From positions 181,716 through 245,715 of the forward strand of contig CABJAS010000005.1 of assembly GCA_902363625.1 (NCBI GenBank): a stretch of DNA of 64,000 bases, written 5' to 3'. The notes beneath the pieces were generated by a model. The model did no database searches. It saw only the letters and a program-made list of their open reading frames with translations, and was not told where the DNA came from. Both the position numbers and the translations under genes were made by a program. The DNA comes from Clostridiaceae bacterium (GTDB taxonomy: Bacteria; Bacillota_I; Bacilli_A; Erysipelotrichales; Coprobacillaceae). This document shows positions 5,847 to 26,547 of this stretch, in pieces (position 1 is the stretch's first letter; every line of letters begins with the position of its first letter).

Positions 5847-8183
5847 ATGAAAGAAATAAAGATCAGGGGAGCTCGACTTCATAATTTGAAGAATATGGAT
5901 GTAACCTTGCCTAAAAACAAATTAATCGCAGCAACAGGAGTCAGTGGTTCTGGTAAATCCAGCTTAGTCTTTGATATTATCTTTGAGGAAGGACGCAAGC
6001 AATATTTGCAGTCTTTAGGCATGCTGACTAATTTGGAAGAATCTTATAAATTTGATTCAATTGAAGGAATCGGACCTACAATTGCCGTTCATCAAAATAC
6101 GATTCGTCAAAGCAATCCACGCTCCACCATTGGAACACGCACAGGAATTCTGCATATGCTGACACTCTTATATTCCAGCGAAGGGAAAGTAAACAGTGAG
6201 GATTACGATGCGGATGAACATTTTGGTCCTAGCTTTTTTTCCTATAACTCTGCCAGCGGAATGTGTCTGCACTGTTCTGGGAAAGGAGCAAACTATGAAA
6301 TTAATATCGATCAGCTTGTCAGCGATGACCAGATGACACTAAAGGACATCTTTATTAAATCAAAAGTGACTCCGGGCTATATGAATATTTTAAAGAAACG
6401 CTTTCATGATTATTTTAATATGCCTTTTGTTTCACTGCCCAATGAAGTAAAAGATGAAGTCATTTATGGGCGTTTTGAACAGGGAAAAAATAGTTATTGT
6501 TTAACCAAAGCCTTTGAAAATCGTCAGCGTAAAGGAGAAGCCGTTCAAGATTTTTATGCGATGCAGTTATGCCAAGAATGTCATGGTTATCGTGTTGGCG
6601 AGGAAGCAAGGAGTGTTTTTATTCATGGAAAGCACATTGGTGAACTATGCACGATGCTTATCTGTGACCTTTATCATTTTCTTTTAGAGACACTTAAAAC
6701 AGAAGCGTACAGTCCGCTTGGAAGCAATTTAGTTCAAGATATCCTTAATAAATTAAAGCACTTAATGAATGCTAAGTTAGGTTATCTGACATTGTATCGG
6801 GAAATGTCGACTTTAAGTGGCGGTGAACTGCAGAGATTATTTTTGAATGCTCATTTAGATACAAAAATGGATTCACTGATTTATGTTTTAGATGAACCGA
6901 CAGCAGGGCTGCACGCTTCTGAAAAGGAAGATATTATTGCTTCGATCCGGCAGCTAAAGGAAATTGGCAATACAGTGATTGTTGTCGAACATGATAAAAA
7001 TACGATTCGGCAAGCTGATCATATCATTGATATCGGTCCCTTTGCTGGACATTTAGGTGGACAGATTGTTTATCAGGGAGATGTTGAGGGCTTATTGAAA
7101 TCACCTTCCTCAATTACCGGAAGTTATTTATCCGGTGAAAAGACAATGCCGATAAGAAAGTTTAAACCGCTTCTTGATCAGCATCCTTTTCTTACTATTT
7201 TTAACGCTAAAACGAATAATCTTAAGAATATTACGGTCAAAATTCCTCTGCATGCACTGGTGGGAATAGCCGGAAAATCCGGAAGTGGGAAAAGTTCATT
7301 AATCTCTGATACACTGCTGCCACTACTGCGAACTCATTTTAAATATGCCTCTCAAGAAAGTAAGAGGGCAGATACAACAGTAAAGACAGAGGCTGAGGGG
7401 TTAAAAGGAATGAACGTGATTGCCGGTTATGCGGAAATATCACAAGCTCCGATTGGTCGCAACAGTAATTCTAACCCTGCTTCTTACATTGGTATTTGGG
7501 ATAAAATCAGATCTTTGTATGCAAATCAAAAGGAAGCTATTAATCAAGGCATGCAGGAAAGCTTCTTTTCATTCAATTCAAAAGGTGCCTGTGAAGAATG
7601 TGAAGGCAGCGGTTATGAAAAAATATGGCTGGGAGAACATCTCAGCATTAATAAAACCTGTCCGAAGTGTCAGGGGAAACGATTTAATCAGGATACTTTA
7701 GCGATCCATTATAAAGGAAAGACGATAGCCGAAGTATTAGAGATGAGTATTGATGAAGCTGCTGAATTCTTTTGTGATCAGCCTGCCATACTCAGTCCTT
7801 TAAAGATTTTGCAGCAGATTGGAATGGGCTATATTCAATTAGGGCAGCCTACACCGACATTAAGCGGCGGGGAATCGCAGCGAATCAAACTGGCAAAGGA
7901 GATCGGCAGAAAAAGAAAAGGAAATATCCTGTATATTCTTGATGAACCCACAACAGGGCTTAGTCAGTATGATATCGCAAAATTGATTGAACTCTTAGAT
8001 CAGTTGGTAGAAAAAGGGAATTCGGTTATTGTGGTTGAACATGATACGGATGTGTTAAAGATTTGTGACTATCTGATTGAATTGGGACCTTGCGGTGGCA
8101 GTGAAGGCGGATATATGATTGCCGAGGGAACCCCGGAAGAAATGAAGAAAGATCAAAATTCACTGACAGGGAGGTATTTGTAA
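5847..8183 (+). CDS. Short UvrA-like ABC ATPase (excinuclease subunit A paralogue)
   Basis: This 778-residue protein has the UvrA plan with two ABC ATPase halves: Walker A GVSGSGKS (31-38) and GKSGSGKSS in the second half, signatures LSGGELQRL and LSGGESQRI, and Walker B ILDEPT twice. Zinc-finger CxxC pairs (CLHCSGKG, CQECHGY, CEECEGSG, CPKCQGKR) are retained. Canonical UvrA is about 940 residues. The shortfall of about 160 falls in the insertion region between the first Walker A and signature, so UvrB interaction may be lost. Such short class II UvrA proteins accompany drug-resistance or toxin-response loci. The AraC/GyrI regulator just upstream and a serine hydrolase gene overlapping the stop support a stress- or drug-response role rather than general excision repair. 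Confidence 0.85.
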   Translation: MKEIKIRGARLHNLKNMDVTLPKNKLIAATGVSGSGKSSLVFDIIFEEGRKQYLQSLGMLTNLEESYKFDSIEGIGPTIAVHQNTIRQSNPRSTIGTRTGILHMLTLLYSSEGKVNSEDYDADEHFGPSFFSYNSASGMCLHCSGKGANYEINIDQLVSDDQMTLKDIFIKSKVTPGYMNILKKRFHDYFNMPFVSLPNEVKDEVIYGRFEQGKNSYCLTKAFENRQRKGEAVQDFYAMQLCQECHGYRVGEEARSVFIHGKHIGELCTMLICDLYHFLLETLKTEAYSPLGSNLVQDILNKLKHLMNAKLGYLTLYREMSTLSGGELQRLFLNAHLDTKMDSLIYVLDEPTAGLHASEKEDIIASIRQLKEIGNTVIVVEHDKNTIRQADHIIDIGPFAGHLGGQIVYQGDVEGLLKSPSSITGSYLSGEKTMPIRKFKPLLDQHPFLTIFNAKTNNLKNITVKIPLHALVGIAGKSGSGKSSLISDTLLPLLRTHFKYASQESKRADTTVKTEAEGLKGMNVIAGYAEISQAPIGRNSNSNPASYIGIWDKIRSLYANQKEAINQGMQESFFSFNSKGACEECEGSGYEKIWLGEHLSINKTCPKCQGKRFNQDTLAIHYKGKTIAEVLEMSIDEAAEFFCDQPAILSPLKILQQIGMGYIQLGQPTPTLSGGESQRIKLAKEIGRKRKGNILYILDEPTTGLSQYDIAKLIELLDQLVEKGNSVIVVEHDTDVLKICDYLIELGPCGGSEGGYMIAEGTPEEMKKDQNSLTGRYL

Positions 8184-9220
8184 TGAAACCTCCTGTCTTA
8201 TCTTTTGAAAAAGTCGATCCAATCGTGGGTGGCATACAGGAAGAAAAGCTAGTGGAAATGGACAAAGTCATACCGGTTCTGTATAAAAATTTAAACGGAA
8301 TTATTGTGATAAGATCAAATAAAACAGTTTTTGAACGTTATTATAACGGTTATCAAAAAGAAGATACTTGTCATATTGCCTCAGTTACTAAAAGTATTCT
8401 TTCAGCCTTAATCGGTATTGCTGTCGATCAGGGGTACATAAAGAGTTTGGATCAAAAAGTACTGGACTTCTTCCCTGATTATGTCTGTCATCCTTCAGAA
8501 GTAGTGAAAAAGTCGATTACGATTCGACATTTACTGACGATGAGAGCGCCTTATCTTTTTAAACCGATGCAGGAGCCTATGGAGAAAATGGTCAGACGAA
8601 AAGACTGGATTAAATTTTCTCTTGATTTATTAGGTAAAAACGGCAATATCGGTTCATTTAAATATGCCAATTGCAGTGCTCATCTTTTATCAGTCATCCT
8701 CACAAAAGCAACAGGGATAAGTGCCAGAGAATTTGCGAATACTTATTTATTTAAACCGCTTGGCATCAAGGAAGTCGCTGATAATCCTGATCAGACATTT
8801 GATTATGAAGGTTTGTTTGGCAAGCAGTTAAAGGGCTGGGCAAAAGATCCCATGGGTTACTCTACCGGTGGCTGGGGTCTTAAGCTGACAACCCGTGACT
8901 TGGCAAGATTCGGCTCCCTTTATCTTAACGATGGGATGTATAATCAAAAACAAATTGTATCTAAAGAATGGATTAAGGCATCGACCACAGGTATCCCTTT
9001 GGAAAAAGAAATCAAGGTTTCTTTTACCCATTATGGTTATCTATGGTGCATTTATAAGTCAGAAAAGCTTTATGCTTATATGGCGTTAGGGGATGGCGGA
9101 AATATGATCTGCTGTATTCCTCAAAAAGAAATAGTGGTAGCCATCACGTCGGCAAATATGCGCAAGGCGCATGATCGTTGGGATCTCATTGTCGATTATA
9201 TATTGCCATCTGTTTTGTAA
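8183..9220 (+). CDS. Serine hydrolase, beta-lactamase/penicillin-binding-like family
   Basis: This 345-residue enzyme belongs to the class C beta-lactamase/esterase family. The nucleophile motif is SVTK (67-70, within HIASVTKSILSALIG) and the second motif is YAN (161-163). The third basic motif is less clear, and the later GDGGNMI region may serve. No signal peptide or transmembrane segment is visible, so it should be cytoplasmic, which argues for an esterase or amidase acting on a small molecule rather than a wall enzyme. The start codon overlaps the UvrA-like stop codon (TAATG), implying translational coupling. A terminator follows at once. Confidence 0.85.
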   Translation: MKPPVLSFEKVDPIVGGIQEEKLVEMDKVIPVLYKNLNGIIVIRSNKTVFERYYNGYQKEDTCHIASVTKSILSALIGIAVDQGYIKSLDQKVLDFFPDYVCHPSEVVKKSITIRHLLTMRAPYLFKPMQEPMEKMVRRKDWIKFSLDLLGKNGNIGSFKYANCSAHLLSVILTKATGISAREFANTYLFKPLGIKEVADNPDQTFDYEGLFGKQLKGWAKDPMGYSTGGWGLKLTTRDLARFGSLYLNDGMYNQKQIVSKEWIKASTTGIPLEKEIKVSFTHYGYLWCIYKSEKLYAYMALGDGGNMICCIPQKEIVVAITSANMRKAHDRWDLIVDYILPSVL

Positions 9221-16257: not shown

Positions 16258-16405
16258 TATGAAGTAAAGCATGATAAAATAAGTCGTGAAAGAATAATTA
16301 AAAGATCCGTATATTTTATGGTTTAGCAGAGGACTTGGTCAATAATGCATTATGGTGATTCTAAAAGTAACCATCAAGTATAGCCAAATAGGAGATGAGA
16401 GGACT

Positions 16406-16846
16406 ATGAATAAGAACTATCAGTTTTATATTGCTGGAAGGGCAAGAAATAAAGAAAGAATCCTAAAAATATGCAATATTTTTGAGGAATTAAATATTTT
16501 ACACTACTGCTTTTTAAAAAATGAAGCTTCTCATGAAAAAGCCGGTTTAAATCTAAATGATGCTGATCTTGCGGAAACATTTGAATCAATGAAATTAGAT
16601 GATCCTCGTATTAGGCTATTATTTGAAGCTGACTTAGAGGGAGAGAAACATTCAGACAATTTTTTATTAGTGCTTCCGGCAGGAAAGTCAGCGCATATTG
16701 AAGCGGGGATTGCCTATGGTTTGGGCAAAAAATGTTATGCGATTGGAGAGCATGATGTTACAGATTCTTTATACCTGATCTTTGATAAAATTTTTAAGGA
16801 TGAAAATGAATTGAGAGCTTTTTTAATAAATAATAAAATGAAATAA
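16406..16846 (+). CDS. Nucleoside 2-deoxyribosyltransferase-like protein
   Basis: This 146-residue protein has the Rossmann-like plan of the nucleoside 2-deoxyribosyltransferase superfamily. It begins with YQFYIAGRARN and has the conserved late block FLLVLPAGKSAHIEAGIAYGLGKKCYAIG, in which the G-x-S-A-x-x-E-x-G motif carries the family's catalytic Glu. Homologues cleave or transfer the base of (deoxy)nucleosides, and relatives occur in phage and defence loci. I chose the ATG at 16406 over the one at 16352 because GAGAGG sits just before it and the family signature begins there. It is followed 71 nt later by an immunity-like protein. Confidence 0.65.
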   Translation: MNKNYQFYIAGRARNKERILKICNIFEELNILHYCFLKNEASHEKAGLNLNDADLAETFESMKLDDPRIRLLFEADLEGEKHSDNFLLVLPAGKSAHIEAGIAYGLGKKCYAIGEHDVTDSLYLIFDKIFKDENELRAFLINNKMK

Positions 16847-16917
16847 ATTAAAAATCTGCATATAGAGTGAGCAGTTGAAAGTCGTTAGGATTATATGGAA
16901 AGGCATTATAGGGGGAT

Positions 16918-17430
16918 ATGACGGAGCCAGAAGAATATGCATGGAATGAGCATGAAAGGCAATTATATATTGAAGATAGAATAACAGTTCCATCTCCATA
17001 TAAAATAAAAGTTATGGATGATATGGATAAAAGAATTGAATTAGAGCAGATTTTGGGAAGATTAACCCAAAGAGAGCTCGCTATCTGGGCAAGAAAAAAT
17101 GCGGATAGATTCATTTCTTATATAGATATTGGAGATGAAGAATCAAAAAATGCCGTAATTTTAAAGACAAGTGATATTTTATCAAAGAGAATAGATAGTA
17201 AAATAAGTGTATTTGAATTAAGAAAAGCAGGATTTTTAGCGAATACACTTGCCAAAAATTTGATAAATGAAATCAGTAAATCGGCATCAAGAGTTTATGC
17301 ACAAGCAATAGTAACCGGATATATGAGAGGTCATGCTATTGTATCATCTGACTATGCAGTAAAGGTGATCAATCTTTTGAATAATAATTGTAAGAGTGAA
17401 GCAGTTAATGAACACAATAAACAAATATAA
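16918..17430 (+). CDS. Putative immunity-like protein (Imm5-type resemblance)
   Basis: This is a 170-residue, helical, soluble protein. The C-terminal part (RKAGFLANTLAKNL ... SASRVYAQAIVTGYMRGHAIVSSDYAVKVINLL) resembles the so-called putative immunity protein (Imm-5-like) family, in which A-A-R-A-A-G-H-A-V-A-T-A-H and a closing H-A-x-x-A-x-x-Y-A-x-K pattern recur. The resemblance is by eye and partial. AGGGGG precedes the ATG by a few bases. No toxin gene is adjacent. It may be a relic of a polymorphic-toxin cassette or have an unrelated function. Confidence 0.45.
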   Translation: MTEPEEYAWNEHERQLYIEDRITVPSPYKIKVMDDMDKRIELEQILGRLTQRELAIWARKNADRFISYIDIGDEESKNAVILKTSDILSKRIDSKISVFELRKAGFLANTLAKNLINEISKSASRVYAQAIVTGYMRGHAIVSSDYAVKVINLLNNNCKSEAVNEHNKQI

Positions 17431-17732: not shown

Positions 17733-19037
17733 ATGAAAAGAATTGACGTTAAAATGATGGAAGTATATTCATCAAAGGCGCATTATCATCAGGAGGATTT
17801 GGAAATTATTTTAGTGCTGGAAGGTAGTCTGACAATTCATAAAGTTCAGCGTCATCTTACGCTCCATGAAGGTCAGTTTACCTTTATTAATCGCTTTATC
17901 GTACATAGCATTGAATCTGATGGAGCAAAGATATTGTCGGTAAAAGTATGCTTATCTGAGTTTAAGGATATCTTTGAAAAGATTGAATATGTAGAATTTT
18001 TAAATAACGATGAGATTCATGAGATTGAACGACCGCTTAAAGAGCGTTTGAATGCGATTGTCGTCGATCTTTTGATCAAACTCTATTATGATCAAGGAGA
18101 TGAAAAAGAAAGAAGATTGAATGAAAACAGTTTAGTTCATCTGCTGTTTCTTTCCTATCAGCTTATCTCTCATACTAAAAATCAAGAAGAATATCCTACC
18201 TATGAACTGCAGTTACGCTACTACAGTATTGTTGAATACATCATGAAGCATATGGATAAAAAGATTGAGGTAGAAGATATTCTTCAGGAATTCTATATGA
18301 ATCGGGCTTATTTTTCACAGTTTATGAAGAAAATAGGCGGTGAAGGATTTAAAACCTTTCTGTCTTATCGCAAACTGATTCATATTTTAGATCAACTTAT
18401 TGACGATCAGTTATCAATGGTAGAAATTGCTGCCAGTGTAGGCATCTTGAACATGAAATCTTTCTATGGTCTGTTTAAAAAGTATTTTGAAGTATCCCCT
18501 ATTAAATGGAAAGAAAGAACAGCTCGGATTGAAGATCACTATCAAGAAACAGGTGAAGAAAAAGTGCTGCAGGACTTTATTAAGAGATATCATATTGATA
18601 AGCACCGTGATAATACGATTTACAAGTTATATAAATATTTAGCGGTTGCGAAAGCAAACAACATTAATATGAAAGGAATCGATATTGTTTTAAATCCTTA
18701 CTTGGATATGGGAGAAGATATTGACGAAGATTATCAGGTATATAAATTTTTAGATTTACTGACACAGTTAATTAAAACTATCGATGCGCATCTTAAAATC
18801 ATTTTTCCGTTTCGTTATTTAAAAGATGATGGTCAAAAAGAGCTTTTGTTTCAGGCTTTAAGACTACAGTCATTACAGAATGGAATTAATGAATTGAAAA
18901 AATGGAAGATCTGTTTTTATATTGATCGCTTATATGATTATCAGGAGGCTTTAACGTTAAAAGTAGATATTGAAAAAACAATTGGGGGACTTAATATTCA
19001 GATTGCATTGGATGCAATAGGCAGACAATTAAAATGA
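17733..19037 (+). CDS. AraC-family regulator with cupin sensor and long C-terminal extension
   Basis: This 434-residue regulator has an N-terminal cupin-like effector domain (residues 5-90, e.g. YHQEDLEIILVLEGSLTIH ... GQFTFINRFIVHSIES). The AraC helix-turn-helix pair is at about 170-265 (KIEVEDILQEFYMNRAYFSQFMK and LSMVEIAASVGILNMKSFYGLFK, then SPIKWK). A C-terminal region of about 160 residues follows, like the glycosidase-like tail attached to some Firmicute AraC proteins. It ends 100 nt before the promoter of the permease-thioredoxin-sulfotransferase operon and points the same way, so it is the natural candidate regulator. The ligand is unknown. Confidence 0.85.
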   Translation: MKRIDVKMMEVYSSKAHYHQEDLEIILVLEGSLTIHKVQRHLTLHEGQFTFINRFIVHSIESDGAKILSVKVCLSEFKDIFEKIEYVEFLNNDEIHEIERPLKERLNAIVVDLLIKLYYDQGDEKERRLNENSLVHLLFLSYQLISHTKNQEEYPTYELQLRYYSIVEYIMKHMDKKIEVEDILQEFYMNRAYFSQFMKKIGGEGFKTFLSYRKLIHILDQLIDDQLSMVEIAASVGILNMKSFYGLFKKYFEVSPIKWKERTARIEDHYQETGEEKVLQDFIKRYHIDKHRDNTIYKLYKYLAVAKANNINMKGIDIVLNPYLDMGEDIDEDYQVYKFLDLLTQLIKTIDAHLKIIFPFRYLKDDGQKELLFQALRLQSLQNGINELKKWKICFYIDRLYDYQEALTLKVDIEKTIGGLNIQIALDAIGRQLK

Positions 19038-19114: not shown

Positions 19115-19143
19115 TTACCAAGCGCTTACATTTTTTGTATAAT
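19115..19143 (+). promoter_or_regulatory. Promoter of the sulfotransferase operon with cre-like palindrome
   Basis: TTACCA and TATAAT are separated by 17 nt. The palindrome AAGCGCTT (19120-19127) lies between them; extended, 19117-19130 matches 11 of 14 positions of TGTAAGCGCTTACA, with a perfect right half. This suggests CcpA or LacI-type repression at this promoter. Confidence 0.6.
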
Positions 19144-19208
19144 TATCCGTGTTAAGTATGATAATTTTTTAACAAGCATACGGAAAATTATAGTGAGAGG
19201 TAAGTTGT

Positions 19209-20684
19209 ATGAAAAAGAAAATCAAAAATTCGTACATCCATTTCTTGATCGGAATGGCGATTATGATCGCATTTCGTTTCATTCCTTTGGGTGTCTTGCC
19301 AAATGTAACAGAGGTCGGGTTACAGGTAATGGGGGTATTCATCGGAACGATCTATCTGTGGTCAACAATAGATCCGACGGTGGCAAGTTTAGCGAGCATC
19401 TTCATGTTAACGTTTACGAGTTTTTCCACTTCAAACAATGTATTGATGTCTTGTTTTGGGAATCCGACTGTAGTTCAGCTGCTTTTCTTAATGATTTTTA
19501 TGGGGGGATTAACGAATCGACGTTTAACTGTCTATATTGCCAGATGGATTACCACCAGAAAAATGATTGAAGGAAGACCTTGGGTATTTACCTTTGTCAT
19601 GCTGTTAGGGACTTATGTCATGTCAGTATTTATTGGTGCATTTGCACCGATCTTCTTATTTTGGCCGGTATTGTATGGGATTTTTGAAGAAGTTGGCTTT
19701 AAGAAGAAAGATACTTATCCAAAATTAATGATTATCGGTATTGTTATTGCTGCATTAATTGGTTTCCCGGTTCCGCCTTATATGTCAAACGGATTGGCAT
19801 TATTAGGGAACTATCGTGGATTACTAAATAACTTCCCAACTTTAATGGGGATGGAAGGAGTCCTAGTTTCAGATGCCAGCTACTTTATTGGCTGCTTTAC
19901 ATTAGGATTATTGCTTATTGTGGCAACAGTATTGATTATTAAATTTATCTTTAGACCGGACGTATCCCCGCTAAAGAAAATCAGTATTGAAATGCTGGAA
20001 AAAAATCCATTGCCGCCAATGTCTATGGCTCAAAAGGTTTATGGTATTTTCTTGTGTGTCTTCATCTTTATTATGTTAGTGCCAAGTTTATTGCCAAATG
20101 TACCAATTTTAAGCTTCCTTAACAAGAATTCACTGGTTATGCCCTTAGTGCTGACGTGTATTTTAACTCTGTTAGAATTTGATGATGGACCGGTATTAAA
20201 ATTAAATGAAGTGATGGGAAAAGATTTTGCTTGGGCAACGTTCTTTCTTTGTACTTCCGCTATCTTGTTGGGAAGTGTTCTGACAAATGAAGCAACAGGA
20301 ATCACCGCCTTCTTGAATGCCGTTCTTTCGCCAATCTTTTCAGGAATGTCAGGTATGATGTTTACAATTGTCTTATTATTAATGGCAATTATCTTAACGA
20401 ATATCTGTAACTCTCTGGTTATTGGAATGATCTTACAGCCAGTCGCCCTGACTTATTGTGTAAATGCAGGCGTTAATCCGGCACCGATCATTACTTTATT
20501 AATCTTTACTGTACTGCTCTCAGCAGCTTGTACACCAGCCGCATCGCCATTTGCTGCGATGATGTTTGGAAACAAAGAATATTTGTCTTCGGGGGATGTT
20601 TATAAATATTCAACAGTCTTTGTAGTGATTGAATTTGTGATCATTATTATTGTCGGTATCCCATTTATCAATCTGTTATTTTAG
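19209..20684 (+). CDS. SLC13/DASS-type anion permease
   Basis: This 491-residue membrane protein has about 12 transmembrane helices. Halves and motifs resemble the divalent anion:sodium symporter/ArsB-like fold. An early TSNNVLMSCFGNPTVVQLL stretch resembles the substrate hairpin, and a later repeat AACTPAASPFAAMMFGN resembles the second SNT-like hairpin. The family imports dicarboxylates, citrate or sulfate. It is the first gene of an operon with thioredoxin reductase, thioredoxin, two arylsulfotransferases and a phosphoribosyltransferase, so an organic sulfate or other anion is a plausible substrate by context. The start ATG follows GTGAGAGGTAAG. Confidence 0.8.
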   Translation: MKKKIKNSYIHFLIGMAIMIAFRFIPLGVLPNVTEVGLQVMGVFIGTIYLWSTIDPTVASLASIFMLTFTSFSTSNNVLMSCFGNPTVVQLLFLMIFMGGLTNRRLTVYIARWITTRKMIEGRPWVFTFVMLLGTYVMSVFIGAFAPIFLFWPVLYGIFEEVGFKKKDTYPKLMIIGIVIAALIGFPVPPYMSNGLALLGNYRGLLNNFPTLMGMEGVLVSDASYFIGCFTLGLLLIVATVLIIKFIFRPDVSPLKKISIEMLEKNPLPPMSMAQKVYGIFLCVFIFIMLVPSLLPNVPILSFLNKNSLVMPLVLTCILTLLEFDDGPVLKLNEVMGKDFAWATFFLCTSAILLGSVLTNEATGITAFLNAVLSPIFSGMSGMMFTIVLLLMAIILTNICNSLVIGMILQPVALTYCVNAGVNPAPIITLLIFTVLLSAACTPAASPFAAMMFGNKEYLSSGDVYKYSTVFVVIEFVIIIIVGIPFINLLF

Positions 20685-20784
20685 AAAGTAAAAATATTAG
20701 GTGGAATAGATTTCAGAAAACTTAAAATATCTATTACTTATTTAGGGGTTAAGGAGTAAAATAAAAGAATAGGAGGTATATAGG

Positions 20785-21699
20785 ATGAATACTTACGATT
20801 TAGTGATTATTGGAGCCGGACCAGCGGGTATGACAGCTGCAATTTATGGGGCTCGAGCAGATTTAAAGGTATTGATGTTAGATAAACTAGCGCCAGGGGG
20901 GCAAATCATCAATACAAACGAAATTCAAAATTATACCGGGATGGGAACTATTAATGGTGCAGAGCTTGCGATGCAGATGTTTACCCACACTCAGGAGTTG
21001 AATGTCGAGTTTGATTACGGAACGGTAACCAAGATCGAGAATGAAGAAGATATAAAAAAAATCTATATTGAAGAAGATAGTGAAAAAATTATTTGTACTA
21101 AAGCAATTATCGTTGCAACAGGAACAACACCAAGACGATTAAATATCCCAAAAGAGGATCAGTTTGTTGGTAATGGCATCAGTTTCTGTGCAATCTGTGA
21201 CGGAGCCTATTATCGTGATAAAGATGTTGTTGTTATCGGCGGTGGAAATTCAGCAGTGGAAGAATCTATTTATTTAGCTGGCATGGTTAAATCATTGACG
21301 ATTGTAACAATGTTTGATTTAACCGCAGATCCGATTGCCTGTGATAAATTAAGAGCGTTGGATAATGTGACAGTTTATCCTTATCAGGATGTATTGGAAT
21401 TTGTCGGTGATCGTCAGTTAGAAGGTGTACACTTTAAATCAACTCAGACTGAAGAAGAAAAGACAGTGTATTGCGATGGCGTATTTGAATATATCGGACT
21501 GTCACCGGTAACGGCCTTCGTTAAAGAGTTGGGAATCTTAAATGATTACGGCTATATTGAAGTTAATGATAAAATGGAAACTAAAGTTCCCGGAATCTAT
21601 GGAGCCGGAGATTGTATCACAAAGAATTTAAGACAGGTTATTACAGCTTGTGCAGATGGTGCGATTGCTGCTCAAGAAGTATCAAGATATGTAAAATAA
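20785..21699 (+). CDS. trxB: Thioredoxin reductase
   Basis: This 304-residue FAD/NADPH flavoenzyme reduces thioredoxin. It has an FAD dinucleotide fold (IIGAGPAGMTAAIYGARA, 8-25), a redox-active disulfide CAIC (135-138, in SFCAICDG), an NADPH fold (VVIGGGNSAVEE) and a closing FAD motif (GIYGAGDC). All catalytic residues are present. GGAGG precedes the start. It lies 100 nt after the permease and 14 nt before the thioredoxin gene, so TrxB and Trx form a dedicated pair. Because it is embedded in a sulfotransferase operon it may be an extra copy rather than the housekeeping one. Confidence 0.93.
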   Translation: MNTYDLVIIGAGPAGMTAAIYGARADLKVLMLDKLAPGGQIINTNEIQNYTGMGTINGAELAMQMFTHTQELNVEFDYGTVTKIENEEDIKKIYIEEDSEKIICTKAIIVATGTTPRRLNIPKEDQFVGNGISFCAICDGAYYRDKDVVVIGGGNSAVEESIYLAGMVKSLTIVTMFDLTADPIACDKLRALDNVTVYPYQDVLEFVGDRQLEGVHFKSTQTEEEKTVYCDGVFEYIGLSPVTAFVKELGILNDYGYIEVNDKMETKVPGIYGAGDCITKNLRQVITACADGAIAAQEVSRYVK

Positions 21700-21713
21700 A
21701 AGGAGGAAACAAG

Positions 21714-22025
21714 ATGTTAAAAGAGGTAGAAAGTGCAGAATTCAATGAATTAGCAGAGAATGGATTAGTATTGGTTGATTTTTTCTCAACAACTTGCGGA
21801 CCATGTAAGATGCTGGCATTTGTATTAAATGATGTTGAAAAGGCAGTAGGAGAAAAAGTTAAAATTCTAAAAGTAGACTTTGACAAAAACAGTGATCTTA
21901 CTGAGAAATATGAAGTGAAGGGCTATCCGACTTTAATTTTGCTGAAAGACGGAGTTGAAGTAAAACGTATGCAAGGGTTACAGCAAAAACCTGCCATTAT
22001 TAAAATGATCGAGGAAAATGCATAA
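21714..22025 (+). CDS. trxA: Thioredoxin
   Basis: This 103-residue thioredoxin has active site CGPC (28-31) inside FFSTTCGPCKML and the cis-proline region GYPTLILLKDG. The usual W-C-G-P-C Trp is replaced by Thr (TTCGPC), a variation that may alter its redox potential. The start at 21714 follows AAAGGAGGAAAC. It is immediately downstream of trxB and 15 nt upstream of the first arylsulfotransferase. Within this operon it probably keeps a partner protein or enzyme reduced; the sulfotransferases themselves are not known to need it. Confidence 0.92.
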   Translation: MLKEVESAEFNELAENGLVLVDFFSTTCGPCKMLAFVLNDVEKAVGEKVKILKVDFDKNSDLTEKYEVKGYPTLILLKDGVEVKRMQGLQQKPAIIKMIEENA

Positions 22026-22040
22026 GAAGGAGAAAATGAA

Positions 22041-23897
22041 ATGAGCGTAGAATATAAAAGAATAGAACATTGGATTCCATTACAAAAAGAAGCTGAAGAA
22101 AAAATGCTGGCTGAATTTGAAAGTGGCGATTACACTGTTGAAAATCCATTGGTAAAAGTGAATGCATATCTAATAAATCCATTGTCAGCTGTCGTTTTAT
22201 TTAAAACTAAAGAGGAAACAGCAGTGACAATTCGTGTAAGAGGGAAAACGAAAGCAGCAGATATTGTGCATACTTTCCCTAAAGCAAAAACGCATATCCT
22301 GCCAGTGTTAGGACTTTATGCAAATTATAATAATACTGTAGAAATTACACCTTATCGTGGAAAAACAACGTCAATTCAGATTGAATTAGGGGATGTCTGC
22401 GATCAAAGCGTTGTGGAATATATTGAAACTACGCCGGAATACTTCCAAGATAATATCATGCTGTTGACACCGGCAGGATCAGAAAAATCAATCGGGGTAG
22501 ATTTTGCCGGAGATATTCGTTTCCACTTAACAGCTTTATGTGTATTTGATGCGAAACGTTTAAAGAATGGAAATCTATTGATTGGGACAGACCGTTTAAT
22601 TAAATTGCCTTACTATATGTCAGGGCTATATGAAATGAGCATGGTAGGGAAAATCTATAAAGAATACCGTGTGCCGGGAGCCTATCATCATGATGAATTT
22701 GAAATGCCGGATGGCAATATCTTATGTTTAACCGAAGATTTAAGAAGTGAAACTGTAGAAGATATGTGTGTTTTATTGGATCGCCAGACTGGTGAAATCT
22801 TAAAGACTTGGGATTATAAAAAATTCTTAACACCGGGAGAAGGACAAGGCTTATCTTATACAGATGAAGACTGGTTCCATAACAATGCAGTATGGTATGA
22901 TGAAAATACAAACTCTTTAACATTCTCAGGTCGTCATATTGATTCGATGGTGAACATTGATTTTGATTCCGGTGAATTAAACTGGATCATTGGTGATCCT
23001 GAAACATGGCCTGAACATATGCAGAAATATTTCTTTAAGCCTGTGGGAAACAACTTTGAATGGCAATATGAACAACACGCTAATTTAATTACACCTAACG
23101 GTGATGTGATGTGCTTTGACAATCATCATAACTCTACTAAGGTCGAAGCTAAAAAAGTTCTTGCTCACAACAATTATTCAAGAGGGGTTCGCTATAAAAT
23201 CAATACCGAGGATATGACGATTGAACAAGTTTGGCAGTATGGAAAAGACCGTGGTGCTGAATTCTTCTCACCTTATATCTGTAATGTTGAATATTATAAT
23301 GAAGGACATTATTTAGTACATTCCGGTGGGATTGCTTATGATCAAGACGGACAGCCTTCCGAAGCATTAGGCGCTTATGCCGTACAAACAGGTGGACGTC
23401 AGGAAGCAATTACAGTTGAAGTTGTTAATAACGTGAAAATGTTTGAATTAAAAACAAACAGCAACTTCTATCGTGCTGAAAAGGTAAAGCTATATACACA
23501 AGGAAACAACCTTGAATTAGGAGAAGGACAGATCTTAGGTTCAATGGGAGTCACTTTAGAGTTTGATACAGAAATTCCGGCAGAGGCAACGGGTGAAATG
23601 CTGCCAGAAGACTGCAATGCAAGAGTTGAAGATGAAATGGATAAATTCACTTTCTTTAGTCGCTTTATGAAAGGGGATCTTGTAATGCTGATGTTGGAAA
23701 ATGGGGATGAAGTACATCGCTACTATATTTCCACGACTTCTCAGCCCGCTAAAGCTATGTGCTGTGGATCATTCTTAGATTCTGATGACCGCAATACCCG
23801 TATCGGAATCAATAAAGCGGGACTAAACGGTACTTATGATATACGTGTTATTATCAATGATAAAAAATATGAAACTGGCATTAAAATTGAATGTTAA
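22041..23897 (+). CDS. Arylsulfate sulfotransferase (AssT family), copy 1
   Basis: This 618-residue PAPS-independent sulfotransferase moves sulfate from an aryl sulfate donor to a phenolic acceptor through a sulfohistidine. It contains an N-terminal beta domain (about 1-115) and a beta-propeller. The residues known to be essential in E. coli ASST have clear counterparts: His216/217 (YHHDEF), His280 and Asn282 (DWFHNNAVWY), Arg298 (FSGRH) and His346 (YEQHANLITPNGD). Unlike the periplasmic E. coli enzyme there is no signal peptide, so this form should be cytoplasmic. It is followed 19 nt later by a close paralogue. Many Firmicute AssT proteins are likewise leaderless. Confidence 0.9.
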   Translation: MSVEYKRIEHWIPLQKEAEEKMLAEFESGDYTVENPLVKVNAYLINPLSAVVLFKTKEETAVTIRVRGKTKAADIVHTFPKAKTHILPVLGLYANYNNTVEITPYRGKTTSIQIELGDVCDQSVVEYIETTPEYFQDNIMLLTPAGSEKSIGVDFAGDIRFHLTALCVFDAKRLKNGNLLIGTDRLIKLPYYMSGLYEMSMVGKIYKEYRVPGAYHHDEFEMPDGNILCLTEDLRSETVEDMCVLLDRQTGEILKTWDYKKFLTPGEGQGLSYTDEDWFHNNAVWYDENTNSLTFSGRHIDSMVNIDFDSGELNWIIGDPETWPEHMQKYFFKPVGNNFEWQYEQHANLITPNGDVMCFDNHHNSTKVEAKKVLAHNNYSRGVRYKINTEDMTIEQVWQYGKDRGAEFFSPYICNVEYYNEGHYLVHSGGIAYDQDGQPSEALGAYAVQTGGRQEAITVEVVNNVKMFELKTNSNFYRAEKVKLYTQGNNLELGEGQILGSMGVTLEFDTEIPAEATGEMLPEDCNARVEDEMDKFTFFSRFMKGDLVMLMLENGDEVHRYYISTTSQPAKAMCCGSFLDSDDRNTRIGINKAGLNGTYDIRVIINDKKYETGIKIEC

Positions 23898-23916
23898 GTA
23901 GAAAGCAGGTTAAGCA

Positions 23917-25782
23917 ATGGCAATTGAATATACATTTATAAAAAGCTTAGTGGATCGTCAGACTGAAGCAGAAAAAGCAATGTTAGATGAATTAGAAGCA
24001 GGTTCATTTACATTCGATCATCCACTAGTTAAATTAAATCCTTACTTTATTAATCCATTAGCAGCTGTAATCTGTTTTAAAACAGAGGAAGAAACCGCTG
24101 TTACTATTCGAGTATTAGGCAAAGAAAAAGAGGGAACGATGATGCATACGTTCCCTAAAGCAAAAACACATATCTTACCTGTTCTAGGTTTATATGGAGG
24201 ATATGATAATACAGTTGAAATTGAATTATACCGTGGTAAAAAGCATACCGTTCATATTCAAACTGAACCTTTATCAAATGATGTACCAGAACTAGTGCAT
24301 ATGAAGACTACTTATCATTATTTAAGAGATGAACTGATCTTTGTATCTCCTGCCTTGACAGATCTTGCCACTGGCTTTGACTATGCCGGAGATGTACGTT
24401 GGCATTTAAATATCCCAACTGTATTCGATATCAAGCGTGCAGCAAATGGCAATATCTTGATTGGAACACATCGTTTATTAAAGCTTCCATACTATATGTC
24501 AGGAATTTATGAAATGAGCATGGTCGGAAAAGTCATTAAGGAATACACTATTCCTGGTGGATATCATCATGATCATTTTGAATTGGCTAATGGCAATCTG
24601 TTAATCTTAACAGAGGATCTAACCAGTGACACTGTAGAAGACATGTGTGTATTAGTTGACCGCAGCAGCGGTGAAATCTTAAAGACTTGGGATTACAAAG
24701 ATTTCTTAGATCCAACGAAAGTGGCAAAAAGCGGAAGCTGGACAGAAGAAGACTGGTTCCATAACAATGCAGTATGGTATGATGAAAAAACAGACTCACT
24801 GACATTCTCAGGACGTCATATTGATAGTATGTGCAATATTGATTTTAATTCAGGTAAACTGAATTGGATCATTGGGGATCCGGAAATGTGGCCAGAAGAA
24901 TATCTGCCTTATTTCTTTAAACCAATTAGTGACGGTGAATTTGATTGGCAGTATGAACAGCATGCCAATGTGATTACGCCTAATGGTGATGTAATGTGCT
25001 TTGACAACGGACATTTCCGTTCTAAGAATCCGGATAAGCGCATCTTAAACAAAGATAACTTTTCACGTGGAGTACGTTATAAGATTAATACGGATGATAT
25101 GACGATCCAGCAGGTTTGGCAATACGGTAAAGAAAGAGGACAGGAGTTCTTCTCTCAATATATTTGTAATGTAGAATACTATAAAGAAGGACATTATATG
25201 ATCCATTCCGGAGGTATCCAATACTACGGTGATGATGCTTCTGAACAGTTTGCGGCATTGATGCAGGATGATCCAATGGTTAAAACACGCTCAATTACCG
25301 TTGAAGTATTAGACGATGAAGTAATGCTCGAACTGGAAGTTAAAGGAAACTTCTATCGTGCGGAAAAATTAGGATTATATCATGATCAGGATAATCTGCC
25401 TTTAGGGCAAGGTGTCCGTCTAGGACAGATGGGGGTTACCAAAGAATCAGATACATTAATCCCTATGGATTCATGCAATGAAGAATTAAGTCATATCTAT
25501 GAGGCTGCAATTGAAGAGGAAGATGATCGCTTCACTTTCAAAGCAACATTTGAATCCGGTCAGCTGGTTATGCTGATGCTGGAACAAAATGATGAACAGC
25601 ATGGTTATTTCATTTCTACAGCAAAGACACCGTTTGCGGCATTATGCTGTGGAACCTTTATAGAAAAAGATGCCAGAAAGATCAGCTGTTCAGTTAATAA
25701 AGCCGGATTAAATGGAACTTATGATGTACGTGTTATTGTCGATGACAAAAAATACGAAACAGGCATTAAAATTACTTGCTAG
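23917..25782 (+). CDS. Arylsulfate sulfotransferase (AssT family), copy 2
   Basis: This 621-residue paralogue of the preceding gene has long identical blocks (for example SGIYEMSMVGK, DWFHNNAVWYDE and the C-terminal NKAGLNGTYDVRVI). The catalytic set is present: His217/218, His282, Asn284, Arg300 and His349. It has no signal peptide. Divergence is greatest after about residue 430, including an insertion near the YYGDDASEQFAAL segment, so acceptor or donor specificity may differ. The start follows AGAAAGCAGG, and the stop is 24 nt before a phosphoribosyltransferase-like gene. The tandem duplication suggests selection for dosage or two substrates. Confidence 0.9.
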   Translation: MAIEYTFIKSLVDRQTEAEKAMLDELEAGSFTFDHPLVKLNPYFINPLAAVICFKTEEETAVTIRVLGKEKEGTMMHTFPKAKTHILPVLGLYGGYDNTVEIELYRGKKHTVHIQTEPLSNDVPELVHMKTTYHYLRDELIFVSPALTDLATGFDYAGDVRWHLNIPTVFDIKRAANGNILIGTHRLLKLPYYMSGIYEMSMVGKVIKEYTIPGGYHHDHFELANGNLLILTEDLTSDTVEDMCVLVDRSSGEILKTWDYKDFLDPTKVAKSGSWTEEDWFHNNAVWYDEKTDSLTFSGRHIDSMCNIDFNSGKLNWIIGDPEMWPEEYLPYFFKPISDGEFDWQYEQHANVITPNGDVMCFDNGHFRSKNPDKRILNKDNFSRGVRYKINTDDMTIQQVWQYGKERGQEFFSQYICNVEYYKEGHYMIHSGGIQYYGDDASEQFAALMQDDPMVKTRSITVEVLDDEVMLELEVKGNFYRAEKLGLYHDQDNLPLGQGVRLGQMGVTKESDTLIPMDSCNEELSHIYEAAIEEEDDRFTFKATFESGQLVMLMLEQNDEQHGYFISTAKTPFAALCCGTFIEKDARKISCSVNKAGLNGTYDVRVIVDDKKYETGIKITC

Positions 25783-25806
25783 AAGGTAAAGAAAGGAGTC
25801 CAATCA

Positions 25807-26511
25807 ATGAAAGAACAAATCAAGATTCCGGCAAAATCAAATGACCAGCTGGTGCTGAGAGTTACTCCGGGGCATTTCTCCAGCGATCGCTTTCACGTCA
25901 ACTACTATATTGATATGTCTTCATTAAAGATGAGACAGTCAGAAGCTAAATTAGTTGCAAAAGTGATGGCAGAAAAATATGTCAAAAAGGTAAAGCTGCC
26001 TGGAAATGTAATGGGAATTAATTTAGAAGCAATGGCGGAAATCGGTGCTAACCGAACTCCTGTAGATACCATTATCTGTATGGACGGCTGTGAAGTGATT
26101 GGAGCTTATTTAGCTGAAGAATTAAGTGATGGAGGGTTCCCTTCAAACAATAAGCATAAAAGCTTCTATGTCATCACACCGGAGTTTGATAATACCGGAC
26201 AGATGGTGGTTCGTAATAATATTAAACCGATGATCAAAGGTAAAAATGTATTAGTGGTGTTAGCGACAGCGATGAGCGGGCGTACCATTTCTAAAGCTAT
26301 CGGAACGATCCTAGCTTATGGCGGTAAAGTGACCGGACTTTCTGTAATCTTTGCCAATGTCGATCAGGTTGATGATTATCCGGTATATGGTGTTTTCACT
26401 CATGAAGATCTGCCTAATTTCAAATTATCAGATCCTCATCACTGCCCTGACTGCGAGGCTGGTATATCATTAGATGCAGTCGTTAATTCTTATGGTTATC
26501 AAATGCTTTAA
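25807..26511 (+). CDS. Phosphoribosyltransferase-like protein (orotate PRTase-like fold)
   Basis: This 234-residue protein resembles type I phosphoribosyltransferases. A hydrophobic strand leads to a loop VLVVLATAMSGRTISKA, which occupies the position of the PRPP-binding motif (normally hhhhDDhhxTGxT). Here the DD pair is replaced by ATAM, so PRPP chemistry may be altered or lost. The C-terminus carries HHCPDCEAG, a possible metal knuckle. It is the last gene of the sulfotransferase operon. Genes like this recur beside arylsulfotransferases as far as I recall, but its role is unknown. A perfect terminator follows. Confidence 0.6.
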   Translation: MKEQIKIPAKSNDQLVLRVTPGHFSSDRFHVNYYIDMSSLKMRQSEAKLVAKVMAEKYVKKVKLPGNVMGINLEAMAEIGANRTPVDTIICMDGCEVIGAYLAEELSDGGFPSNNKHKSFYVITPEFDNTGQMVVRNNIKPMIKGKNVLVVLATAMSGRTISKAIGTILAYGGKVTGLSVIFANVDQVDDYPVYGVFTHEDLPNFKLSDPHHCPDCEAGISLDAVVNSYGYQML

Positions 26512-26516
26512 TAAAG

Positions 26517-26547
26517 ACGAATGTTCTATTGAACATTCGTTTTGTTT
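26517..26547 (+). terminator. Rho-independent terminator
   Basis: A perfect 10-bp stem (ACGAATGTTC / GAACATTCGT) with a 4-nt loop is followed by TTT. It ends the permease-Trx-sulfotransferase operon. Confidence 0.9.

Follow-up and report, generated by a model that had tools for sequence, protein, structure and literature searches.

Gene content and regulation of the operon

The stretch of DNA analyzed here (the window; 64,000 nucleotides of contig CABJAS010000005.1, positions 181,716 to 245,715, from the Clostridiaceae bacterium assembly GCA_902363625.1, Coprobacillaceae) carries an operon with two leaderless arylsulfate sulfotransferase (ASST) genes. Six codirectional genes on the + strand, at positions 19209-26511, encode a DASS-like permease, a thioredoxin reductase (TrxB), a thioredoxin (Trx), ASST1, ASST2 and a phosphoribosyltransferase (PRTase)-like protein (PRT), and each gene runs from ATG to stop without interruption (Table 1). 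The gaps from TrxB through Trx, ASST1 and ASST2 to PRT were 14, 15, 19 and 24 nt. DASS and TrxB are separated by 100 nt, and a terminator scan found no + strand terminator within that gap. The six-gene operon and the gene identities proposed in the original prediction, which had been made from the letters of this DNA and its open reading frames, were upheld. The DASS-like permease scored 47.7 bits (9e-13) against TIGR00785, for which the curated cut-off is 198.6.

The original prediction also placed an AraC regulator and a cre-like palindrome at the operon promoter, and both were found. A homologue of the AraC regulator occupies the same position at loci L001, L002, L003, L008 and L009. The palindrome AAGCGCTT at 19120-19127 overlaps the -35 element of the promoter-like site, and the half-site AGCGCTTACA lies upstream of DASS in five of seven compared sequences (window counted), the two without it being L003 and L006. 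Promoter-like sites overall were not enriched in the window over shuffled sequences (48 versus a mean of 42.6, sd 5.4). The window DNA is 88% identical to that of Beduini massiliensis across 8.9 kb, which marks its source as closely related to that bacterium, though probably of a different species. No homologues of AsrA, AsrB or AsrC, the subunits of anaerobic sulfite reductase, were found within the window, and in the related Beduini genome asrABC lies on a contig other than that of the operon.

Table 1. Features of the arylsulfate sulfotransferase operon and its upstream region in the window
Feature	Position	Strand	Evidence and remarks
AraC-family regulator with cupin domain	17733..19037	+	PF12833 and PF07883 above cut-off; upstream, codirectional
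Promoter-like site TTACCA-17-TATAAT	19115..19143	+	Overlapped by cre-like palindrome AAGCGCTT
DASS-like anion symporter, presumed aryl-sulfate importer	19209..20684	+	TIGR00785, below curated cut-off; adjoins ASST in many linked loci
TrxB, putative dedicated thioredoxin reductase	20785..21699	+	CAICD redox motif; LTADP replaces HRRxxxR; TIGR01292 just under cut-off
Trx, thioredoxin, CGPC	21714..22025	+	PF00085, 92 bits
ASST1, leaderless arylsulfate sulfotransferase	22041..23897	+	PF05935, 330.8 bits; extra C-terminal part
ASST2, second leaderless arylsulfate sulfotransferase	23917..25782	+	PF05935, 352.6 bits, 3.3e-105
PRTase-fold protein without the acidic pair of the phosphoribosyl pyrophosphate (PRPP) loop, C-terminal CxxC	25807..26511	+	PF00156, 19 bits, below cut-off
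Terminator-like hairpin at operon end	26514..26543	+	13-pair stem, T-rich tail, after PRT

The two ASSTs are intact and leaderless

Assignment as an ASST was made with PF05935 at a cut-off of 24.2 bits; the N-domains (PF17425) of ASST1 and ASST2 scored 73 and 67.3 bits, respectively, against a cut-off of 24.2. The residues for which section 6 of PMC13426309 gives catalytic roles in Escherichia coli AssT (His252, His356, Asn358, Arg374 and His436) align with H217, H280, N282, R298 and H346 of ASST1, and their equivalents were invariant in 35 of 35 aligned ASSTs, both window copies counted. A phylum sample of 398 genomes yielded 12 further genomes whose ASSTs are moderately divergent, at 46-54% identity and without a hydrophobic leader, and the same equivalents were kept in 19/19 of these proteins. 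The ASST fold and its catalytic residues are intact. No signal peptide was apparent by sequence and hydropathy only, the top 15-residue hydropathy in the first 60 residues being 1.61 for ASST1 and 1.4 for ASST2. The earlier description of both copies, with all catalytic residues and no signal peptides, therefore agrees with our data.

The extra C-terminal part of ASST1 (residues ~491-618) bears Cys574, which is invariant in its clade; in the ASST tree, ASST2 belongs to a different clade with good support. Within the leaderless clade, several cysteine positions hardly vary. Cys574 was found in 65/65 sequences of the near clade and in 18/18 of those moderately divergent ASSTs that reach the position, and on this pattern it is a better candidate for a thiol relay than Cys358. 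The latter was rejected as a general relay, being present in 65/65 near-clade sequences but in 0/19 moderately divergent ones, several of them Trx-linked. One short sequence (L153) was left out of the cysteine comparison. The near-clade cysteines occurred in 0/19 far divergent ASSTs, a result that is partly trivial for the C-terminal ones because that region may have no counterpart there; the N-terminus of these far divergent proteins was hydrophobic in 13/19 and not in 6/19.

Several genomes carry multiple ASST matches (six in G003, seven in G009 and five in G010), which suggests substrate-specific sets. An apparent giant ASST fusion at G003, an open frame of 2179 residues, was discarded since the frame enters unknown bases in L315.

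A dedicated thioredoxin system accompanies many leaderless ASSTs

The operon TrxB scored 325.8 bits against TIGR01292 (cut-off 343.45). Other TrxB-like proteins were present in all eight ASST-carrying genomes examined; in these genomes, operon-type TrxBs were 67-95% identical to the query, compared with 34-44% for the other TrxB-like matches. The LTADP segment was found in 33/33 separate ASST-linked TrxBs and in 0/20 other TrxBs, 8 of which keep RRxxxR. By these sequence features the operon TrxB is a dedicated paralogue. NADPH-dependent thioredoxin reductases carry an HRRxxxR motif, and LTADP in its place suggests NADH or another donor for the operon enzyme. The CGPC motif was kept in 31/34 ASST-linked Trx frames.

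Partners were counted for 74 distinct leaderless ASST sequences. A codirectional Trx or TrxB lay within ~5 kb of 52 of them and AsrA lay near 26, and the Trx link was found on several well-separated branches of the ASST tree. A TrxB-like reductase of 401-407 residues lies near ASST in L231, L232, L233 and L235; the one scanned with Pfam, from L232, is a TrxB-Trx fusion. L232 also has a second, divergent ASST at 7125-8609. Trx or TrxB was found beside ASST in 6 of the 12 genomes with moderately divergent ASSTs. At loci of far divergent ASSTs, Trx, TrxB and Asr were found in 0/12, and the result stayed empty at stricter and laxer thresholds. Among 37 AsrA loci whose stretch contains no ASST, one (L307) had TrxB and none had Trx.

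The neighborhood is conserved and linked to asrABC

Eighty loci of PRTase-like relatives, kept from 160, were compared, the fetched stretches being short in some. TrxB and Trx both stood beside ASST in 19/80. The order DASS-TrxB-Trx-ASST1-ASST2-PRT was kept in L001, L002, L006, L007, L008 and L009, and Lachnospiraceae loci showed the same genes rearranged. The comparison of neighborhoods that had been proposed as a check on linkage thus showed the importer, the Trx system and the leaderless ASSTs conserved together across relatives, which points to an intracellular aryl-sulfate pathway.

The recurrent neighbors of ASST1 in Lachnospiraceae were AsrA and AsrB, then AsrC. The asr genes were codirectional with DASS-TrxB-Trx-ASST in 12 genomes (L005, L172 and L175-L184; asrB was not called in L175), and protein clustering gave the same arrangement in L022, L027, L033 and L038. 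At the two loci scanned, L005 and L041, all three subunits exceeded the NCBIfam cut-offs, with 431.9 and 393.4 bits for AsrA, 328.8 and 331.9 for AsrB, and 360.5 and 366 for AsrC, respectively. A gene for porphobilinogen synthase, which is needed for siroheme, lies between asrC and the DASS gene at L005, and a Crp/Fnr-type gene is divergent from DASS in 8 of the 11 larger stretches. In B. massiliensis (L160) asrABC and hemB form one run on a contig different from that of the operon; in Longibaculum muris (L161) the asrABC run includes hemA, hemC, cobA-hemD, hemB and a hemL-like class-III aminotransferase gene, which fits siroheme supply.

Variants of the arrangement were also seen. At L228:2759-8803, genes for HdrA-like, AsrA/B-like (below cut-off) and TauE-family (sulfite exporter) proteins directly precede ASST and a DASS gene. 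Other ASSTs have a DASS gene and no adjoining Trx (e.g. L015, L030 and L173); such loci would fit substrate-specific entry modules that feed one reductive core.

AsrA co-occurs with near-clade ASSTs in genomes lacking recognized sulfate activation

Twenty genomes were picked from the 80 PRTase-like loci, and 18 of them carry the leaderless ASST clade. AsrA was above cut-off in 18/18 of these carriers, within ~8 kb of ASST in 9/18, and in one of the two non-carriers. In a sample of 397 genomes of the G015 family, in which a carrier was defined by an ASST match over 600 bits (n = 11), AsrA was above cut-off in 10/11 carriers versus 67/386 non-carriers (Fisher 4e-7), with at most ~3 and ~5 candidates scored per genome, so that the base rates are lower bounds. 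Six of the 11 carriers were already in the chosen set, and AsrA was present in four of the five new ones. AsrA lay in the ASST neighborhood in 9/11. The one carrier that gave no AsrA match was G244, whose ASST is on a 4.9-kb contig. The Beduini (G001) family sample comprised 43 genomes, with 9 carriers (six of them already in the chosen set) and 34 non-carriers, and AsrA was above cut-off in 8/9 versus 7/34 (Fisher 3e-4). In the ninth carrier, G822, AsrA is in two pieces on two contigs. Since the genomes share ancestry, the Fisher values overstate independence and serve as guides only. Among the 12 genomes with moderately divergent ASSTs no enrichment was seen, AsrA being above cut-off in 3/12.

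Enzymes of sulfate activation were searched for in the 18 carriers. ATP sulfurylase (PF01747) gave no match, and neither CysD (TIGR02039) nor CysH (TIGR00434) was above cut-off in any of the 18, with matches below cut-off in 6 and 10 genomes, respectively. With AsrA present and no sulfate activation enzyme above cut-off, the carriers are without a recognized route from sulfate to sulfite; other sources of sulfite were not searched.

Proposed pathway from aryl sulfates to sulfide

The association with asrABC, together with the absence of sulfate activation, suggests that the sulfuryl group ends up reduced to sulfite by a thiol. We consider it somewhat probable that the operon encodes a reductive use of aryl sulfates, in which import, ASST and Trx/TrxB would deliver sulfite to AsrABC and thereby give sulfide. 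A more specific version, for which we put the chances at about even, is that a protein thiol serves as the natural acceptor for the cytoplasmic (cluster II) ASSTs. Together with Trx and TrxB, these enzymes would then act as an aryl-sulfate reductase that releases sulfite and uses neither 3'-phosphoadenosine 5'-phosphosulfate (PAPS) nor ATP, and by feeding AsrABC it would let host and dietary phenol conjugates yield sulfide in the gut.

In this scheme the DASS-like permease would bring an aryl sulfate into the cytoplasm, where the leaderless ASST would take the sulfuryl group onto its catalytic histidine and release the phenol, a chemistry known for the family and consistent with the residues aligned above. 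Trx may be the acceptor, either by itself or by way of a cysteine in ASST, for example Cys574. The thiol would receive the group as S-sulfocysteine, and a partner thiol would displace sulfite and leave a disulfide. The dedicated TrxB would re-reduce Trx, and AsrABC, linked as described, may convert the sulfite to sulfide, either to assimilate it or to dispose of electrons. The net effect would be an aryl-sulfate reductase independent of ATP-dependent sulfate activation.

Because aryl sulfates donate the sulfuryl group from a high-energy state, a thioredoxin coupled to pyridine nucleotides should be able to reduce that group to sulfite. PAPS reductase and thioredoxin work along the same lines, from a sulfuryl donor by way of a cysteine thiol and thioredoxin to sulfite. 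For the arylsulfotransferase (AST) family, section 6 of PMC13426309 describes the formation of sulfo-histidine, from which the group is passed to an acceptor. According to PMC3528435, recombinant Trx1, Trx2 and most glutaredoxins turn free S-sulfocysteine into cysteine in vitro, and the sulfite from this conversion is usable by E. coli.

Several observations weigh against the proposed reductive pathway. AsrA lies elsewhere in the genome in 9/18 chosen carriers, and asrABC does not adjoin the ASST operon in the Beduini genome. AsrA of the same kind occurs in stretches without ASST (L291-L294, L307 and L308), neither Trx/TrxB nor AsrA was near 21/74 leaderless ASSTs, and AsrA was not enriched with moderately divergent ASSTs. 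Cys574 is located in a loop that the structure model predicts with low confidence, and the conserved cysteines could merely suit a reducing cytoplasm. The sample overlaps, the lower-bound base rates and the shared ancestry given above belong on the same side. L307 and L308 have AsrABC with hemB, and L307 also has an ordinary TrxB.

Acceptors other than a thiol are possible, given that the ASST of Hungatella effluvii sulfates ordinary acceptors in vitro, namely phenols, alcohols, N-acetylglucosamine and uridine, in the parts of PMC11576661 and PMC13426309 that describe it. The ASSTs might accordingly move sulfate from imported aryl sulfates to a phenol, sugar or nucleoside, with Trx/TrxB only keeping their cysteines reduced as a cytoplasmic counterpart of DsbL/DsbI, the dithiol pair that E. 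coli AssT has of its own in the account of PMC13426309. The near-invariant cysteines would suit such upkeep, as would the moderately divergent group, in which a Trx or TrxB partner (6/12) is found more often than AsrA (3/12). We judge this explanation rather unlikely: it does not account for the asr genes that share a run with the operon genes, for the near-clade co-occurrence or for the missing sulfate activation, and a dedicated pair should be unnecessary where other TrxB-like proteins exist, as they did in each genome examined.

The occurrence of the same asrABC without ASST in the stretch, and the scarcity of AsrA in the moderately divergent group, would also agree with a cluster that handles sulfonated and sulfated compounds generally. 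ASST would then free or transfer sulfate, and AsrABC would use sulfite of other origin (taurine, dissolved sulfite) under one regulator; gut bacteria are known to draw sulfite from taurine and isethionate (PMC6386719 and PMC8473560). No sulfonate-cleaving gene was found among the scanned neighbors, the genomes at large not having been searched for such genes, and the recurrent partners Trx and TrxB have no use in a pure sulfotransferase pathway. We regard this possibility as quite improbable.

Of the original interpretation, the intracellular aryl-sulfate pathway stood, on the linkage and the intact catalytic residues; an acceptor made by the PRTase-like protein was not supported, and the asrABC association and missing sulfate activation had been overlooked.

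Comparison with known systems

Compared with periplasmic AssT-DsbL-DsbI of uropathogenic E. coli (PDB 3ELQ/3ETS), the window ASSTs are leaderless and have the extra C-terminal part. The partner pair in the operon is reducing (TrxB/Trx), not oxidizing (DsbL/DsbI), and the operon has a linked importer, to which relatives add linked asr genes. The cysteine-bearing disulfide loop of AssT, which we take to be the structural Cys418/Cys424 loop, is missing from ASST1 in the alignment.

The window ASSTs probably fall in the same cluster as the Firmicutes cluster II ASTs (D. hafniense DhAST and H. effluvii HefAST; PMC13426309), by Firmicutes origin and not by alignment. Members of that cluster perform PAPS-independent transfer in vitro and were studied as biocatalysts, and the passages on them in PMC13426309 report no Trx or Asr link. 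In that 2026 review, most ASTs are said to be without an identified natural acceptor and their place in physiology to be poorly understood; its main text contains none of the words sulfite, thioredoxin and sulfide.

The proposed logic resembles that of PAPS/adenosine 5'-phosphosulfate (APS) reductase (CysH) with thioredoxin and differs in the donor, an aryl sulfate on a beta-propeller enzyme. It is also like organosulfonate respiration in Bilophila, likewise a gut anaerobe, where a sulfite-releasing module (isethionate sulfite-lyase) supplies a sulfite reductase. The Bilophila reductase is Dsr, as against Asr in the ASST carriers, and that system cleaves the C-S bond of sulfonates, whereas reductive S-O cleavage of sulfate esters is proposed here. 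The known AsrABC is matched subunit by subunit at L005 and L041, outside the window itself, and is there joined to the ASST-Trx module. Among the matches listed from the open-licence PMC literature, none describes an ASST-Trx-Asr pathway, judged by title and start of abstract. The parts of the proposed pathway are known; the proposed reaction would be new.

Significance

The first bacterial PAPS-independent AST came from a human gut bacterium, and indoxyl sulfate, estrone sulfate and picosulfate are among the compounds that gut ASTs can use as donors in vitro, as described in passages of PMC13426309. A gut metagenome survey found asrABC to be more widespread than dsrAB (results given in PMC9016944); the words sulfotransferase and sulfate ester are absent from its main text. 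The present genomic data suggest an unrecognized gut microbial route from sulfated molecules to hydrogen sulfide. If the proposal is true, gut bacteria that bear asrABC and are without sulfate activation gain a source of sulfite, and sulfated uremic solutes, steroids, drugs and polyphenols would be linked to hydrogen sulfide. It would also constitute a third enzymatic route from the oxidation level of sulfate to sulfite, APS reduction and PAPS reduction being the other two. The question of the natural acceptor of ASTs would be answered, and a reductive fate makes that question testable.

The PRTase-like protein and other observations

The PRTase-like protein is the loosest member of the operon. 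ASST was within the fetched stretch in 27 of the 80 PRTase-like loci; the other 53 had none in the fetched stretch, which was short in some. PRT was present in only 4 of the 11 asr-ASST stretches (L180 and L182-L184). The window protein has the PRTase fold. An acidic pair in the PRPP loop is the pattern of type I phosphoribosyltransferases, and this pair was missing in 44/44 PRTase-like sequences, with L, M or A at position 152 and A at position 153; the modified PRPP loop of the original prediction is thereby corroborated.

The same prediction tentatively suggested a nucleotide or a ribosylated compound as acceptor, which the PRTase-like protein would make and ASST would sulfate. The operon ends with PRT in L001, L002 and L006-L009, several Lachnospiraceae loci have PRT close to ASST, and some ASSTs accept uridine in vitro according to PMC13426309. 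With both PRPP carboxylates gone from every sequence, and with linkage to ASST and to the asr-ASST stretches as loose as counted here, we find this role highly improbable, and it was dropped as the main idea.

Two other settings of the family were noted. Members of one gene family precede the PRTase-like gene in L014, L016, L019, L023, L025 and L026, with no ASST nearby; the member scanned, in L016, is a nicotinate phosphoribosyltransferase, and nicotinate metabolism was considered as a role for PRT. A ~43% identical form recurs in ten loci among L064-L080 near another one-family gene, with no ASST in the stretch; that neighbor, scanned in L079, is a GerA spore germination protein, and the family therefore probably has another, general role.

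Upstream of the operon (window positions 16352-17430), a putative Imm5-like immunity protein (PF21805, 16918-17430) adjoins a 164-residue protein without a Pfam match.

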